From Bacteroidota bacterium (GTDB lineage Bacteria; Bacteroidota; Ignavibacteria; Kryptoniales; JAKASW01): DNA of 64,000 nucleotides. A program made the translations under genes and the position numbers. The stretch covers positions 1 through 64,000 of the forward strand of contig JAJYIT010000002.1 of assembly GCA_021789975.1 (NCBI GenBank). The letters are read 5' to 3'. Below, piece by piece: positions 42,045-50,486 of the stretch (position 1 is its first letter; the number at the start of each line of letters is the position of its first letter). The notes below the pieces were generated by a model. It did not search any database. It was not told where the DNA came from and worked only from the letters and a program-made list of their open reading frames with translations.

Positions 42045-45000
42045 TTAGAAGTTATACCTCACTCCAAGCTGCATTTGCCAGCGAGAATAGAATGAGTCCG
42101 GTGACCATGGTACACCGCCTCTTGGGAGCGAGAGCGCAAAAGCCGGTTGTCCTGAAGCATTCATTCCTTCATAATTCAAGAGAGTATAAGTTCCGTAGGG
42201 AACCGTCTCTATGTAGCCCCAGTTATGGTCAAGCAGGTTTAGGAAGTTCAGAACGTCTAGAGTGAACTCTATATTCTGACCGGCAACCGTCGGGATATCC
42301 TCTGCCAACCGAAGATTCAGTTGATTCTGCCAGGGAGACCGACCACCGTTGCGCGGGACGATTTGGCCCTGGTACTTACTCAGATATGGGTCGCCGTTTA
42401 TGTAGTCAGCGAGCTGAGTATAACTGGACTGTGGTGCCGGCACCCACTGCCCGTTCTGCTTGACCACTAGATTAATATCGCCACCCGGTGCGACGTTTTT
42501 CGGATCGTATATCAGATCGTTCTGGTTGTTACCGTCACCATTTACGTCACCATAGTAAATGTAGGAAAACGGACTCCCGGATTGCCCTGAATAGAAGAGC
42601 GAAATTGTCGTCGCGAAACCAGGACCATAATTGACCGTCTCAGAAACCGATGCCACCACCCGGCTTGGAACACTGAAGTCTGAAACCGCTAAGGGCGGAT
42701 CATTCGGGTTTCCGGGGACCGGATTGTAAACAAATTGCGATATTGCTTGTGTGGATGTCACCGCGTTTTGATCATAAGACCGGCTGTATGTATATGATAA
42801 ATCCAAGAAGAGCTGGTCATTCACTCCAGATTTCAGCAGTGAAAAGATGCCTCTCCCAAACTGTCTCTGCAACGAAGCCGTTAAGTCGTACTCATAAGGC
42901 TTGTTGGTGTTTGTCATATAAACGACGTTAGTGTAATTCGTGCTGACCTTGTTGTAGTTCCAGTTGTAATTATAGAGACCCGGCTTCGGAGTTCCGAAAA
43001 AGGGCCTGTTGTCAACGCCAGGCCACAATTGCTGCCCCGTCGCCTGTAAGTTGAGATCCTGGTACAGAACGTCGTTCAATGACTGACTGAATATCCCTTC
43101 CAGTGTTCCGACAACTCCAAACGCAAGTTGATGGTCAACCGCTAGATCTACTCTGAAGACCTGAGGCATCTTGAAGTTGTTCGACGTCAGGTCAATCTCT
43201 GTGGTCGGAATAGGAGCAAGTAGAGAATCGACAGGAATGCCACCGCCCGGTCTCGGTTGATCCAAGGGATTAGAAGTGAAGAATCCTCCTGGCAAATCGT
43301 AGGCACTGAGGCGGTTGATGTTAACTCCTGTATTGCTATACTGGTTGGAGAGCCAAACATATGGTACACGTCCTGTAAAGACTCCGGCTCCTCCCCTTAT
43401 GATTGTGCTTCTGTCTCCACTCACGTCCCAATTGATTCCCAATCGCGGAGATAGGAGAGGAGTTGCTTTCGGAGTCTGATCAGTCTTCAAACCCATCGAG
43501 GCGAAGGTCTGGTCAAAAGCAGGATTGTTCAGCGGCTTGTCGGGGAAGGTTGGAATGTCTAACCTCAGGCCGTAAGTCAACTTGAAATTGGAAGTTATGT
43601 TCCATTCATCCTGAGCATACACTCCGTACTGGACCGCATTCCACTTGGCTCTAGGCTGATTGACTCCAGGCAGATTGGAATAGTCATACTGGTAATTGTA
43701 AGGCTTGCCGGCTGCGAAGTCGCTAAGACTGTTGAAAAGATAGAAGCCGTAGAAATCTCTGAGGAAAAGGTTGTTGAATCCAAATAACTCGTCGTGCGTC
43801 CCGAAGGTCAGTAGATGGCTGCCGAGCGACACCGACAAATTATCGGTCAATTCCCAGATATCCTGGCTAAGAGCGTTCGCGCCTGAAAATTGTTCTGTCC
43901 CGGCCACAAGCATCCCGCCATTAGGAAGTGATGGATCTTTTACTTCGATCATTGGGAACACGGGTCCCGGTACAACTCTGGTGTCACGGATCGATGTGTA
44001 TCCTGCTATCAATTCGTTTGACAAAATTGGACTGAACGTGCTATTCAACTGAGCAAGTATTGAGTTTGTCTTGTCGTTGAAAGTGTATTCGCTTCCCGAA
44101 TAATAAAGCTCAGAGCTCGTTCTGGTCAAGTTGTCTTCGTTGGCATCGACAAAGTTATCGCGAATCGTGAGCTTGTTCATCTCATCGATATTGTAGTCAA
44201 TCCTGGCGAAAATCTTGTTAGAGGGGGTGAGCAGCGTGTAGGTGTTGATCGACCCCGGATTATATCCATACTTTGCGAGGACACTTTGGAACTCTTGTGT
44301 TGCCGAGCTTGGTGGATTCATTACGTCGTAAAGCGGTTGACGCTCGCGCGTAATTTCACCGTTCACAAAGAAAAAGAGCTTATCCCTCATGATGGGACCG
44401 CCAACCCTGAACCCCGTCTGAACGTTACTGAAGGTCGGGTAAGGCTTCTTGTACACATCAGGACTCGTACCGACGAAATTTTGATTCTGGCCAAAAAAGT
44501 AGAGTGAACCCGTGTAAGTGTTCGTTCCGCTTCTCGTGATGGCATTTATTTCGCCCCCTGTAAATCCGCCCTGCCTAACATCAAACGGAGCCATGGTAAC
44601 CTGGAATTCCTGGATGGCATCAAGGCTGATAGGTGTTGTGCCGGCCTGACCTCCCGGCGTACCGCTTGAAGGAAGACCGAAGAGATCGTTGTAATTCGCA
44701 CCGTCGATCTCGATGTTGTTGTACTTTTCGTTTCTTCCGAGGGATGAGTTGCCTCCACCATAGCCAACCATCTGTGGAGATAGGTCGACAAAATCCTGAA
44801 AACTTCTTGTGATCGTTGGGAAATCGTTGATATACTTCTTCGATACGATAGTTGCGGCGCCCGTACGGTTTGTATTCATCAGCGCATTTCGCTCTGCGAT
44901 TATCTCGACGCCGCCGACGTTAACTGCTTGTTCGGTGAGTTTGAAATTAAGTTCTAGGTTCTGGCCAATCTCAAGGCTGGCGACTCGCACTTCCTGCGTC

Positions 45001-45266
45001 TTGTAACCGACTTCGGAAACTGTGATTACATAGGGGCCGCCTACCCTCATGCCTCGAACGAAATAGCGGCCGTCAACTTGCGTGCTGGTTCCGTATTTCG
45101 TTCCCGATGGAGTATGAATGGCCATGACCGTCGCACCCGGTATTGCTTGACCATGTGTGTCTGTAACGACACCGCTGATCGAAGCCGTTGTTACACCTTG
45201 AGCAAGTACAGAAACCGGTAATGATAACAAAAGAGTGAACTGAATGATCCTTAGCAAACCCCGCAT
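42045..45266 (-). CDS. TonB-dependent outer-membrane receptor with carboxypeptidase-like regulatory domain
   Basis: A 1073-residue outer-membrane transporter. It has a signal peptide (LLSLPVSVLAQG), a CarboxypepD_reg-like domain at about 27-110 (ISGVVTDTHGQAIPGATVMA, VDGRYFVRGMRVGG) and a plug domain (VGGVEIIAERNALM, IDGANYNDLFGL). A long beta-barrel ends in WQMQLGVRYNF with the terminal phenylalanine needed for Bam insertion. It resembles Oar-type receptors more than SusC, and no SusD gene is adjacent. A triple 11-bp repeat like the one before pstC lies 156 bp upstream, suggesting phosphate control. Confidence 0.93.
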   Translation of the reverse strand: MRGLLRIIQFTLLLSLPVSVLAQGVTTASISGVVTDTHGQAIPGATVMAIHTPSGTKYGTSTQVDGRYFVRGMRVGGPYVITVSEVGYKTQEVRVASLEIGQNLELNFKLTEQAVNVGGVEIIAERNALMNTNRTGAATIVSKKYINDFPTITRSFQDFVDLSPQMVGYGGGNSSLGRNEKYNNIEIDGANYNDLFGLPSSGTPGGQAGTTPISLDAIQEFQVTMAPFDVRQGGFTGGEINAITRSGTNTYTGSLYFFGQNQNFVGTSPDVYKKPYPTFSNVQTGFRVGGPIMRDKLFFFVNGEITRERQPLYDVMNPPSSATQEFQSVLAKYGYNPGSINTYTLLTPSNKIFARIDYNIDEMNKLTIRDNFVDANEDNLTRTSSELYYSGSEYTFNDKTNSILAQLNSTFSPILSNELIAGYTSIRDTRVVPGPVFPMIEVKDPSLPNGGMLVAGTEQFSGANALSQDIWELTDNLSVSLGSHLLTFGTHDELFGFNNLFLRDFYGFYLFNSLSDFAAGKPYNYQYDYSNLPGVNQPRAKWNAVQYGVYAQDEWNITSNFKLTYGLRLDIPTFPDKPLNNPAFDQTFASMGLKTDQTPKATPLLSPRLGINWDVSGDRSTIIRGGAGVFTGRVPYVWLSNQYSNTGVNINRLSAYDLPGGFFTSNPLDQPRPGGGIPVDSLLAPIPTTEIDLTSNNFKMPQVFRVDLAVDHQLAFGVVGTLEGIFSQSLNDVLYQDLNLQATGQQLWPGVDNRPFFGTPKPGLYNYNWNYNKVSTNYTNVVYMTNTNKPYEYDLTASLQRQFGRGIFSLLKSGVNDQLFLDLSYTYSRSYDQNAVTSTQAISQFVYNPVPGNPNDPPLAVSDFSVPSRVVASVSETVNYGPGFATTISLFYSGQSGSPFSYIYYGDVNGDGNNQNDLIYDPKNVAPGGDINLVVKQNGQWVPAPQSSYTQLADYINGDPYLSKYQGQIVPRNGGRSPWQNQLNLRLAEDIPTVAGQNIEFTLDVLNFLNLLDHNWGYIETVPYGTYTLLNYEGMNASGQPAFALSLPRGGVPWSPDSFYSRWQMQLGVRYNF

Positions 45267-45656
45267 ATACTACTCCTTTCCGCTTGTGCTTTCTGTTTGA
45301 TAGATAAAGGATTGGGGAAATTCGTTCTTGGGGACGACGCGGTAAGCCAATGGTTATGTAACTGACACACCGTGCTCTCTGCATCACTTCCACCACGGGA
45401 AAAAAGTTAGCGCACGCTTCAGTCAAAAGCAAGTTAAGTTAGAGTTAAGAAGTCCACTCCATTTGTTTAGTGTCCGGACCAGATGAGCTATCCAGGGAAA
45501 CTGCTCGGAGATCCGCGAGCGATTTCCTTCAAGAATCAAGAGGTTGCCGACCGAGTGCACCGAGATGTCCCTGGCGGAACGTCGGACTCTTTCTCGACAG
45601 CCTCTTTATGAATTCAGATTCTTCCTATTTAGCGCGCCAAGTATTTACATCTCCCT
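45267..45656. other. receptor upstream region with Pho-box-like repeats
   Basis: The 390 bp between the M1 aminopeptidase and the TonB-dependent receptor hold no gene. It contains an 8-bp GTCCGGAC palindrome at 45472-45479 and the triple repeat at 45422-45448. An AAAGGAG ribosome site lies just before the receptor start (45270s). Confidence 0.6.
45422..45448 (-). promoter_or_regulatory. PhoB/PhoP-type box upstream of the TonB-dependent receptor (predicted)
   Basis: On the plus strand GTCAA (45422), GTTAA (45433) and GTTAA (45444) recur at exactly 11-bp spacing; read in the direction of the receptor gene they are TTAAC, TTAAC, TTGAC. Direct repeats of one helical turn are the binding pattern of phosphate response regulators, and TTAACA is the PhoP half-site in Gram-positives. 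The same pattern, with four copies, precedes pstC. Confidence 0.5.
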
Positions 45657-47606
45657 TCAACTGCCCGAGATTGATCCCGACTCCCAGGTATTGTTATTAC
45701 GGTTGACGTCGGGAAGAACGTGGTTTGGATCAAGGACGACTCTTTCTACTTTCTCGTGTCCATACACCGGGAAGGTATATCTATTTCCATCATACCAAAT
45801 TTCCACAGGCAATTTATAAACCTTCGAAGTTCCATTTGCCAAAGTAACTTCCAACTGCGTGGGCATGACCAATCCACGGTTATTAGACAAGTATATCAGA
45901 GTGACTCCTGTGTCCGCTTTGACCGAATCGACCGCCTGGTCCAGTACGTGCGTTGAGTAGAACCACCCTCGCCAAAACCAGTTGAGACTTTCTGCAGTGT
46001 AATCCTGAATTGTCCGGAAAAAATCTGCCGGTTGTGGATGTTTGAATGCCCATCTTTTTATGTAAGCTTTGAAAGCTGGATCGAACAACTTCTGACCGAC
46101 AATGAATTCACGGAGGAGTCGAAGGCCGAAAGCAGTTTTGAAGTATTCGAGGAATCCAAGGTTTCGAGGCTTGATCTGATCGGCCCTGGTGTCGATCGGT
46201 TGATCGTTTACGGGCATCAGCATCCGTTTGGCGATAGAATCTGCTCTAAGCATTATGTTCTGCCTTGCCAGATCGCCGTAATAGTCATGGTTCGAGTAGT
46301 AGTTTATGAAAGTGTTAAAGCCTTCATCCATCCACGCATGTCGGCGCTCATCACTTCCGACGGTCATCGGGAACCAACTGTGACCAAATTCATGATCCGT
46401 TACGTTGTATAAATATTGTCCGCGTGCGTGAACAGAGCAGAAAACAATCATCGGATATTCCATACCACCCACGATGCCAGCCACGTTCGTTGCGACCGGA
46501 TATGGATAGTGATAGTACCTCGTCGAATAGAACATGAATGTGTGTCTCATCATCTGGATCACATCTTCCCATCCGGGGATCTTGGCGCTGTCTGCCTTGA
46601 TCCCTTCAGGGGGATAGACAGCCATCAACAGAATATTGTCCCAATGAGAAGCATCCCATACAAAAGCCTTAGATTCAGCCCATGTAAAATCGCGCACGTT
46701 TTCGGCATGGAACCTCCAGGTCATCTCGCCTGTACCGCGCGGCATTGTTTCCGGGTTGCCCATATCTGATATCGGAATAACGTGTACCGTTGAGTCAGTT
46801 TTCCGTGCCTCCTCAAGTCGCCTGAGTTCGGTTTTGGTCAGCACGTCTTTCGGATTCTGCAGTACGCCCGTAGCAACCACTATGTAGTCCCTCGGCACAG
46901 TGATGCTTACATCGAAGTGCCCATATTCCAGGTAAAACTCGCCTTCACCCAGATAAGGCAGAGGATTCCACCCATGTACGTCGTCATAGACATACATTCT
47001 CGGGTACCATTGCGCAATTTCATAAATTGTTCCGTCTTTGGGTTGAAACCGACCCATCCGGTCTGAGCCATAATGTGGTACAACGAAGCTCCATGCGATA
47101 TCGAGCTGCACCTTGCCGCCTCTTGGTGGAATTGAGCGCTCAAGGTAAATCTCCATCTTGGTATCGCTCACGATATATTTCGCAAGCGATCTCTTGCCGT
47201 CTTGAACGACTACTATTGATTGAAGGGAATCTCCACCGTTCTTGAATGCTCCTCTCCATCTGGCACGCGGGTTATCATATTCCAGATTTCCCCAGCTCCC
47301 TTCTTTAAAGAGATTCTGATCGAGCTGCAGCCAGAGGTGGGTCAAAGGATTTGGAGAGTTGTTGGTATAGGTAATAACCTCCCTTCCAGATATTCTGTCG
47401 GTGATCGTGTCGAGCCTGGCATCGATTCTGTAGTCTGCTCTTTGCTGCCAGTAGTCAGGTCCAGGACGGCCGTCAGCAGTTCGCACACTGTTTGGAGTAG
47501 GCAGGTGTAACGGTTCAAAAATATTGCCGCTAGACTGCGCCTGCGCTACGCCGAAACACAGAACGCACAGAAAGATAGCAGTGCTCATATTAAGCAATCG
47601 CTTCAT
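45657..47606 (-). CDS. M1-family zinc aminopeptidase, secreted
   Basis: A 649-residue exported metallopeptidase with a signal peptide ending at AQAQ. The zinc motif HEFGHSWF begins at His405, with Glu406 and His409, and the third ligand Glu428 lies in WMDEGF at the classical spacing. The exopeptidase substrate motif GGMEYP precedes it. The start at 47606 follows AAGGAGAACCC; the longer frame to 47672 lacks a signal peptide at its own N-terminus. It lies between the pst operon and the TonB-dependent receptor, so it may supply peptides or amino acids. Confidence 0.92.
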   Translation of the reverse strand: MKRLLNMSTAIFLCVLCFGVAQAQSSGNIFEPLHLPTPNSVRTADGRPGPDYWQQRADYRIDARLDTITDRISGREVITYTNNSPNPLTHLWLQLDQNLFKEGSWGNLEYDNPRARWRGAFKNGGDSLQSIVVVQDGKRSLAKYIVSDTKMEIYLERSIPPRGGKVQLDIAWSFVVPHYGSDRMGRFQPKDGTIYEIAQWYPRMYVYDDVHGWNPLPYLGEGEFYLEYGHFDVSITVPRDYIVVATGVLQNPKDVLTKTELRRLEEARKTDSTVHVIPISDMGNPETMPRGTGEMTWRFHAENVRDFTWAESKAFVWDASHWDNILLMAVYPPEGIKADSAKIPGWEDVIQMMRHTFMFYSTRYYHYPYPVATNVAGIVGGMEYPMIVFCSVHARGQYLYNVTDHEFGHSWFPMTVGSDERRHAWMDEGFNTFINYYSNHDYYGDLARQNIMLRADSIAKRMLMPVNDQPIDTRADQIKPRNLGFLEYFKTAFGLRLLREFIVGQKLFDPAFKAYIKRWAFKHPQPADFFRTIQDYTAESLNWFWRGWFYSTHVLDQAVDSVKADTGVTLIYLSNNRGLVMPTQLEVTLANGTSKVYKLPVEIWYDGNRYTFPVYGHEKVERVVLDPNHVLPDVNRNNNTWESGSISGS

Positions 47607-47801
47607 AGTTGGGTTCTCCTTCGTGTGGTGGGACAAAGAGAGGTTGGATGCAATAGAAATAGTCGCCTTCAAACTCCCATCTGGTAATAGAGACTACGAT
47701 ACCCTGGAATTCGGGTAAGAACAATCGAAACAGACGAATCGGATCTGAAAAGGTTCGTTAAAGAGTGAGGCTTGAAACGAGGTAGGATGCGACAACGAAG
47801 C

Positions 47802-48578
47802 TTAGCCGAATCTGCCTGTGATGTAGTCCTCAGTCTGCTTTTTCTTTGGCCTGGTGAACATGTCACGGGTGTCGCTGAATTCCACAAGTTCCCCCAAATA
47901 GAAGAAGGCAGTAAAGCTGCTCACCCTTGCTGCCTGCTGCATGTTGTGTGTAACGATTACGATCGTATACAGTTCCTTTAGCTGGAAGATGAGCTCCTCG
48001 ATCTTGGCGGTTGAAATCGGATCGAGTGCACTAGCGGGTTCATCCATGAGGATGACTTCCGGGTTCACCGCGAGGGTCCTTGCGATGCAGAGTCTCTGCT
48101 GCTGACCTCCAGACAGGCTGGCTCCCGATTTCTTCAGCGAATCTTTCACTTCGTCCCACAGCGCTGCCTGCAAAAGGGTGCGCTCGACCACGTCGTTGAG
48201 TTCTTTTCTGGAATGCCTCCCCATCAGTTTCAGACCGGCAGCAACGTTATCATAGATTGACATGGTAGGAAAAGGATTTGGCTTCTGAAAGACCATACCT
48301 ATTTTACGTCTGACGAGTACAGGATCTATGTTCGAAGCATAAATGTCCTGACCGTCAACAAGGACTCTGCCAGTGATCCTGGCATTCTTTGCCAGTTCAT
48401 GCATGCGATTCAAGGTCCTCAAGAATGTGGTCTTGCCACATCCGGATGGACCGATGAATGCAGTTACTTCATTTTTTGGAATAGAAATGTCGATTCCCTT
48501 TAGTACTTGGACGCTTCCGAAGTATGCTTTCAAGTCTTCAGTCAGGATTCCGGCAAAATGATTTGGGTTGTCGGTCAT
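47802..48578 (-). CDS. pstB: phosphate ABC transporter ATPase PstB
   Basis: ATPase of the high-affinity phosphate importer, 258 residues. It has Walker A (GPSGCGKTT), the PstB-specific [17 protein letters not shown], signature [16 protein letters not shown] and Walker B ([15 protein letters not shown]). Membership is secure because of the Q-loop KPNPFP motif. It overlaps pstA by 4 bp and is the last gene of pstCAB. No phoU follows. Confidence 0.97.
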
Positions 48579-49477
48579 AAGGTGTGTTCGTATTTCTGCT
48601 TTGAAAAAGCCCTAACTCCCATATTGACGATCAGTATTGCCATGACCAGGACAAGTGCCCCGGCCCATGCCTGTCTATGCCAGTCACGATACGGCGAGAT
48701 GGCATAATTAAAAATCTGAACAGGTAGAGTAGAGATCGGTTCTGAGAGGCTGTAACTGTAGAATGCATTGTTAAAACTCGTGAAAAGAAGTGGAGCGGTC
48801 TCACCAAGAACTCTAGCGACTGCCAGCAATATGCCCGTGACAATTCCACTCTTCGCGCTTCGCAATACAACCGAAAGTACTGTCCTCCAATAGGGCACAC
48901 CGAGTGCCAGCGATGCTTCACGAATCGAAGTTGGGACTGTTTGAAGCATCTCGTCGGTCGTCCTGATAATGGTCGGTATCATCATGACTCCAAGGGCAAA
49001 TCCACCGGCTATCGCCGAGAAGCTTTTCATCGGAAGAACAACGACGGTATACGCGAATACGCCCGTGACTATCGATGGCGTACCGTTAAGTACGTCGGCA
49101 ACGAATCTTGTTACGGTGGAAAGTTTGCTGTGTGGAAATTCCCCAAGATATATTCCACCCAGGAGGCCGATAGGTATGCCCATCGCTGATGCGAGTCCGA
49201 CGACGTAAAGCGAACCTATGATGGCATTTCCCATCCCACCGCCGATTTCACCAACCGGAGCGGGCCTGTGAATGAAGAAATTCAGGTTAACAGATGAGGC
49301 TCCCTTGTAAAAAAGGTAGCCGACTATCAGGAGCAATGGAAGAAGAACTATCAGAATGCTCGATGAGAATAGGACCGTGAACAACGTGTTGGATATCTTG
49401 CGGCGCCAATAAACGAAGCCGCTCCCCGAAAGTACGGTTCTTCTTACCTGCTCTGTGTGGTTCGCCATATCAGCCAC
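48575..49477 (-). CDS. pstA: phosphate ABC transporter permease PstA
   Basis: Inner-membrane permease of the Pst system, 300 residues, with six predicted helices. The binding-protein-dependent transport motif is seen in [30 protein letters not shown], and the start region has [24 protein letters not shown]. The first 34 bp overlap the end of pstC, so the real start may be the second methionine (49468). Confidence 0.96.
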
Positions 49478-50415
49478 CTTGCTGCACCATTCACGATCAG
49501 CGTTATGAGAAGTAGGATGAAAGCAACGGCCACCAATGCCGACAGATAGGAAGATGTGGTAGCTTCAGTGAATTCATTTGCAATCACCGCAGCCATCGAA
49601 TAACCGGGGTCAAGTAATGAAAGACTCATCTTGGGGGTGTTTCCGATGACCATTGTCACCGCCATCGTCTCTCCCAAAGCTCGCGCAAGGGCCAGGACTA
49701 TCGAGCCCGATATCCCGCTTTTAGCAAACGGCAAGGAAACCCGCTTCACTGTCTCCCATCTTGTCGCGCCCAGCGCATACATCCCCTCTTTCAGAGGAAC
49801 CGGAACTGTACTCAATACTTCTGTGGAAACGGAAATGATGAAAGGTACTATCATTATGGCAAGTATCAGCGATGCCGTGAGCATTCCAATGCCGAGCGGG
49901 TACCCTTTGAAGAACGGAAGATATCCGAATGCGTCCTGAAGAAACGGCTCGACGGTCATCGCCATAAGCGGCGAGAGCACAAAGATTCCCCACAGGCCAT
50001 AAACAACGCTCGGTATTCCCGCCAACAATTCGACGAGGGGTTGCAGCAATCGTCTCAACCATTTCGGCGAAAGCTCTGCCAGGAAAATCGCCGTACCAAC
50101 TCCGAGAGGAGTCGCAATAAGCAGAGACACAAACGAGGTCACAAGCGTGCCATAGATAAAGGGGAGTGCACCGAACACGCCTGTCACGGGATCCCAGGTC
50201 GTCCCCTTTATGAACCCCCAAAACCCAAGATTGTGAAATGCCAGTTGGGAGGACAAGTATAGTTGCAAACCGAGCCAAACGAGCAAGACAATCACAACAA
50301 AAGCGAACATGCCGACAACGAGTTTGAAAACATTGTCGGGTCGAACAAAGGTCCGTTTTTCAAATTTCAATTCAGGGGATTGAAGTGCTGGCACATCTTG
50401 GATTTCCAGAGCCAT
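49444..50415 (-). CDS. pstC: phosphate ABC transporter permease PstC
   Basis: Inner-membrane permease partner of PstA, 323 residues. It has the FGALPFIYGTLVTSFVSLLIATPLGVG region and the EAA-type loop VPLKEGMYALGATRWETVKRVSLPFAKSGISG. It is the first gene of pstCAB. The periplasmic binding protein PstS is not encoded here. A run of four 11-bp repeats sits 34 bp upstream, which implies phosphate regulation of the operon. Confidence 0.96.
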   Translation of the reverse strand: MALEIQDVPALQSPELKFEKRTFVRPDNVFKLVVGMFAFVVIVLLVWLGLQLYLSSQLAFHNLGFWGFIKGTTWDPVTGVFGALPFIYGTLVTSFVSLLIATPLGVGTAIFLAELSPKWLRRLLQPLVELLAGIPSVVYGLWGIFVLSPLMAMTVEPFLQDAFGYLPFFKGYPLGIGMLTASLILAIMIVPFIISVSTEVLSTVPVPLKEGMYALGATRWETVKRVSLPFAKSGISGSIVLALARALGETMAVTMVIGNTPKMSLSLLDPGYSMAAVIANEFTEATTSSYLSALVAVAFILLLITLIVNGAARWLIWRTTQSR

Positions 50416-50448
50416 GTAATCAAAGTAGCCAGAAGCATTTAATTGCAG

Positions 50449-50486
50449 GTTAAGTAAATGTTAAGAAAGTGTTAACTCCTGTTTAA
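50449..50486 (-). promoter_or_regulatory. Pho-type box upstream of pstC, four direct repeats (predicted)
   Basis: GTTAA at 50449, 50460 and 50471, and TTTAA at 50482, recur at exactly 11 bp. Read toward pstC the series is TTAAA, TTAAC, TTAAC, TTAAC with five- to six-base spacers. Two of the gaps give a full TTAACA. This is the arrangement bound by OmpR-family phosphate regulators and it precedes a phosphate transporter, so the call is strong for a predicted site. Confidence 0.7.

Follow-up and report, generated by a model that had tools for sequence, protein, structure and literature searches.

In a PHO box, direct repeat units of 11 nt, in which about seven positions are conserved, follow one another in tandem, and a promoter carries several of them (PMC4415409). 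The boxes of Escherichia coli, Bacillus subtilis and Streptomyces share three properties with the site described here: the repeat layout, a position upstream of the -7 or -10 element, and phosphate-transport genes as targets (PMC4415409). The core sequence is different: TTAAC here, CTGTCAT in E. coli and GTTCACC in Streptomyces. Furthermore, the box described here is tied to the TTG/TAnnTTTG promoter of the Bacteroidota, a phylum in which the -7 promoter consensus is TAnnTTTG (PMC9723704).

Closer systems have been studied in several species. The PhoB protein of Bacteroides fragilis binds the pstC promoter in EMSA (PMC3547664). In Flavobacterium johnsoniae three TonB-dependent transporters and two SusCD-like (Pus) complexes are induced only under phosphate depletion (PMC8115612). 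These transporters have annotated Plug domains and, in the case of Pus, SusC/SusD partners, whereas the receptor described here is Oar-like, matches neither Plug nor SusD and belongs to a different lineage; it is by annotation that the two are set apart. In Riemerella anatipestifer the genes preceded by TTTAACA, the binding motif of a regulator called PhoP, include those for a TonB-dependent receptor and an outer-membrane barrel as well as moxR (PMC9603813). PhoP was read as a virulence and redox regulator and its motif was likened to that of ArcA; we compare it here by binding motif. Finally, receptors of the Oar subclass combine an N-terminal CarboxypepD_reg extension (PF13620) with a TonB-dependent receptor fold, according to the sections of PMC6434023 considered here. 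Oar of Myxococcus xanthus, which shares the extension and the fold with our receptor, is needed for PopC secretion, and those sections report no link to phosphate (PMC6434023).

The window, the whole stretch of 64,000 nucleotides that we analysed, adds a further probable case of the known Pho regulon in an uncultured Bacteroidota lineage. A gene on the minus strand (42045-45266) encodes an Oar-like TonB-dependent receptor of 1073 amino acids with CarboxypepD_reg and OMP_b-brl_4 domains. Three pentamers spaced by 11 bp lie 156 bp from its ATG (45266), exactly as the initial annotation had described: on the plus strand GTCAA at 45422, GTTAA at 45433 and GTTAA at 45444. Read on the coding (minus) strand from 45448 to 45422, the sequence is TTAAC(TCTAAC)TTAAC(TTGCTT)TTGAC, or TTAAC-N6-TTAAC-N6-TTGAC. 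Unit 1 (TTAAC, 45444-45448) and unit 2 (TTAAC, 45433-45437, 11 bp further on) are followed by a putative unit 3 (TTGAC, 45422-45426), the weakest of the three.

The same pattern was said to be a repetition of that at pstC. Both loci do contain the strict pattern, although the pstC box has four good units rather than three: TTAAA, TTAAC, TTAAC and TTAAC (50449-50486, minus strand), which start at 50486, 50475, 50464 and 50453. The box belongs to a pstC-pstA-pstB operon that spans 50415-47802 on the same strand as the receptor (pstC, 49444-50415, TIGR02138; pstA, 48575-49477, TIGR00974; pstB, 47802-48578, TIGR00972; all above cut-off). Between pstB and the receptor lies a gene for a family M1 peptidase (45657-47672, minus strand). 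The operon is indeed nearby, but its end is about 2.5 kb from the receptor and not about 3 kb as first estimated.

The repeat is rare in the genome. We searched the genome for the pattern, strictly and with one mismatch, and used the reversed pattern as a control. The strict form GTYAA-N6-GTYAA-N6-GTYAA has two matches in 4.7 Mb, the receptor site and pstC (50449-50475), and the reversed control has none. With one mismatch allowed, a single further place appears (C33:129714), and the control matches once. Among spacings of 7-15 bp, 11 bp is the sole one at which the window contains three-unit scores of 13/15 or more, and pstC and the receptor site are the two places where it does. For the 350 bp upstream of the receptor, dinucleotide shuffling gives p = 0.0025, the lowest value that 400 shuffles can yield. 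A pair of units is not diagnostic by itself, since TTAAC-N6-TTAAC is found 11 times genome-wide and its reversed control also 11 times.

The additional place on C33 fronts a porin-like gene with weak matches to BBP2 and Porin_O_P only. Downstream of it follow pstS1 and pstS2 (both TIGR00975 above cut-off), ppx, a CHAD gene, a gene of the histidine-phosphatase family and ppk, and a second site on C33 fronts pstS2. Because the best sites of the genome lie at pstC, at the porin-like/pstS1/pstS2 operon and at the receptor, the 11-bp TTAAC array marks phosphate genes in this genome. The receptor is its sole target without an obvious phosphate role. The genes phoB, phoR and phoU are consecutive on C77. 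For PhoB the best family is TIGR02154 with 242 bits, below the cut-off of 296, and no autoregulatory box at 9/10 or better precedes phoB.

The position of the repeat suits an activator. A -33-like TTG (45430-45432, minus strand) overlaps the spacer after unit 2, whose start is 28 bp away from a -7-like element, TAACTTTT (45402-45409, minus strand). Together they form a promoter of the type TTG-N20-TAnnTTTT, which resembles the TAnnTTTG of the Bacteroidota. A sigma-70 promoter scan gave no hit, as expected for the phylum. The site consists of at least two tandem 11-bp direct repeat units near the -33/-35 region, upstream of the promoter; the same motif precedes phosphate uptake genes of the same genome, and this genome encodes PhoB and PhoR. 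By its sequence features the repeat is a typical PHO box of the PhoB family.

A gene-specific conserved block of 18 bp, GTGGTGGAAGTGATGCAG (45379-45396, minus strand), follows where the mRNA is expected to begin. An Rfam search of 45150-45650 matched no RNA family. We rejected a conserved RNA fold, because the alifold energy was reached by 25 of 100 column shuffles, and by eye also a conserved small ORF, because indels break the frame and one of two tandem copies in a relative (G012b) has an early stop.

The architecture is conserved in the genus. The order pstCAB-M1 peptidase-receptor-NifJ is kept in most relatives, and the M1 peptidase gene is conserved as the one that directly follows pstB. 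The upstream regions of orthologous receptors had been proposed as a check, and we aligned nine promoters from eight genomes, one of which has two tandem receptors. In an otherwise variable alignment the conserved islands are CTAAAC further upstream, TTAAC-N6-TTAAC, CTTGCTTTT, TAnnTTTT 20 bp after the TTG, and GTGGTTGAAGTGATGCAG. Units 1 and 2 are kept in all nine readable promoters. Unit 3 did not pass this check: it appears as TTGAC, TTAAA, TTCAC, TTGAG or TTCAG and is elsewhere unrecognisable, so that the footprinted core comprises two units. Three promoters (G003, G010 and G012a) have two units only, and there the three-unit test is without significance. Across the genus the mean best three-unit score is 12.0 at 11 bp versus 8.9-10.7 at other spacings. 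The two tandem receptor copies of G012 (C81, L153) each have their own box, promoter and UTR block.

Spacing to the promoter is nearly constant. From unit 2 to the -7 element the distance is 28 bp; three promoters with 10 extra bp have 38 bp instead, and as 10 bp make one helical turn, the face of the helix is kept. The pstC promoters of ten relatives have at least three units, and the last unit lies 26 bp before a -7-like element in all ten. The porin-like and pstS2 promoters of the own genome likewise have at least three units and show the same 26 bp. TTAAC-N6 repeats 26-28 bp before TAnnTTTG thus offer a PHO box that can be scanned for when predicting phosphate regulons of Bacteroidota.

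We propose that the receptor belongs to the Pho regulon, with phosphorylated PhoB binding the array and class II activation at the TTG/TAnnTTTG promoter, and give this reading a probability of about 85%. We infer that when phosphate is scarce, phosphorylated PhoB would bind the tandem half-sites (core TTAAC) head-to-tail. The box overlaps the -33 region and its 28-bp distance from the -7 element is the position of a class II activator. Bound PhoB would thus recruit RNA polymerase and switch on the receptor in concert with pstCAB and the porin-like/pstS operon. Across the outer membrane, the receptor would then take up a scarce compound that may contain phosphorus.

The main rival is another regulator of the OmpR/PhoB family, for example one for the envelope or redox state, that binds similar 11-bp half-sites, in which case the receptor would not be controlled by phosphate. 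The genome has genes for at least seven full-length regulators of the OmpR family, and Riemerella PhoP binds its TTTAACA before many non-phosphate genes in addition to moxR and a TonB-dependent receptor (PMC9603813). In Chitinophaga, arrays similar to CTTAACAATTTGTTAATTYGGMGTTAAA, TTAAC-N6-TTAAY-N6-TTAAA, stand before the orthologous receptor (37-39% identity), and in the three genomes searched this site is among one or two perfect matches per 7-8 Mb. Yet no PstC above cut-off was found in Chitinophaga, and a box in that genus is therefore not necessarily a sign of phosphate control. The other side of the balance is that the remaining strong sites in the own genome and genus front only pstC, the porin-like/pstS operon and, in one relative, ppk. 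Moreover, PhoB of Chitinophaga and the PhoB encoded here are each other's best hit, and their recognition helices, GDRT(V/I)DVHIRKIR, are nearly identical. Overall we consider control by another regulator improbable.

Chitinophaga has other sites of this kind, which also count in favour of another regulator. The second perfect match lies before a paralogous Oar-like TonB receptor (L178, L200), and weaker 11-bp TTAAC arrays front moxR (L197, L204), the gene bound by Riemerella PhoP. One-mismatch sites in Chitinophaga are mostly background (48 versus 34 control matches).

A second alternative, which we regard as very unlikely, is that the receptor is expressed mainly by read-through from the pst operon and the M1 gene, with the repeat minor or vestigial. 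The shared strand and the conserved pstCAB-M1-receptor order agree with it, as does a search for terminator-like hairpins, which found none on the coding strand between the M1 gene and the receptor. However, the receptor has its own footprinted box, a TTG-N20-TAnnTTTT promoter and a 5'-UTR block. In addition, the repeat is still there when the receptor is away from pst. Five genomes from a second family of the order show this: their orthologous receptor (48-49% identity) is located away from pst, downstream of a gene that resembles nuoN by eye, and all five carry two to four TTAAC-like units before it (shuffle p 0.0025-0.01). Seven of seven genomes of these order relatives have a four-unit box before pstS.

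Chance repetition of an A+T-rich TTAA word, for which the lack of two-unit enrichment might speak, has a negligible probability, given the three-unit and 11-bp specificity, and is refuted by the conservation of the repeat in orthologous promoters and in order relatives.

Conservation beyond the genus is patchy, as the array is absent in many other class members and from most distant Bacteroidia orthologues. Apart from Chitinophaga, the distant orthologues (Bacteroidales, Flavobacteriaceae) show no general 11-bp signal.

The predicted switch also outlives the gene behind it. The block GWGGYNGARGTGATGCAG occurs always in the receptor slot, in 10 of 13 genus genomes with one copy each (two in G012), and a control search of the 13 genomes gave no match. 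An orthologue of the receptor is missing from two relatives, G001 and G011, but the same box, promoter and UTR still stand there between the M1 gene and NifJ. Their slot (G001, L158 14454-16961; G011, L257 9982-12468) contains an unrelated TonB receptor with Plug and TonB_dep_Rec domains, which is only 26% identical to the Oar-like receptor over the N-terminal part. At the junction G001 has an assembly gap with a repeated stretch of the UTR, and G011 is free of gaps there. In G006 the slot is without a receptor. Thus the receptor has been exchanged and the predicted switch kept in two relatives. That such a site persists after its gene has gone and comes to serve another receptor speaks for selection on the regulation itself, and the locus is a clear example of a regulatory context that survives the gene under its control. 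Receptor exchange behind a kept switch and the gene-specific UTR block are the non-standard features of this member of the Pho regulon.

The initial annotation had predicted a phosphate-controlled receptor. The evidence supports this prediction: the best sites of the genome front phosphate genes or the receptor, the box is kept in promoters of the genus and the order at a near-constant distance from the promoter, and it stays when the receptor gene is exchanged. Because the box is shared with phosphate-uptake genes and the switch was kept after receptor replacement, expression of the receptor under phosphate shortage is very probable.

The CarboxypepD_reg extension (PF13620, 2.2e-20) is the one found in Oar proteins. 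No match to Pfam Plug (PF07715) was found in the receptor at E 0.001, and we therefore call it Oar-like and not Oar; a plug-like region at about 120-250 was judged by eye only. The AlphaFold2 model (mean pLDDT 69, pTM 0.70) finds its best Foldseek matches in TonB-dependent transporters of the FusA, YddB and FepA type, with E from 1e-30 to 1e-20. As modelled, the receptor has the fold of a TonB-dependent transporter with plug and barrel. We abandoned deriving the substrate from the structure, as Foldseek gave generic TonB-dependent transporters only. That the ligand contains phosphorus is a guess, put at slightly less than even odds. An orphan class of large TonB receptors would here be tied to phosphate starvation, and its substrates become testable as phosphorus compounds.

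Tentatively, and with more doubt than confidence, we suggest a wider picture. The fixed PhoB switch may form a phosphate-starvation slot for exchangeable TonB receptors, and the UTR block may add a second layer of control beside the PHO box. The Oar-like family could then be a widespread, unrecognised phosphorus-scavenging transporter, controlled by PHO boxes even in Chitinophaga.

Some observations concern the phosphate genes themselves. In one genus relative, G008 (L160 5990-6080), ppk is preceded by a PHO box of the form TTAACTTG...TATTTTG; this ppk and ppx are located between a VWA-type gene and pstC. The pstS2 and porin-like promoters of the own genome (C33; L147 10586-11689, 9331/9383) have TAnnTTGC at -7, where the receptor has TAnnTTTT. 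TAnnTTGC resembles motif SM5 (TAnnTTGY), which was assigned to a sigma variant in Flavobacterium psychrophilum. At pstC the putative -7 element (window 50415-50427, minus strand) is separated from the annotated ATG by about 12 bp, and it is similarly close in ten genus relatives. A -7 element this close to the ATG suggests a leaderless or near-leaderless pstC mRNA.
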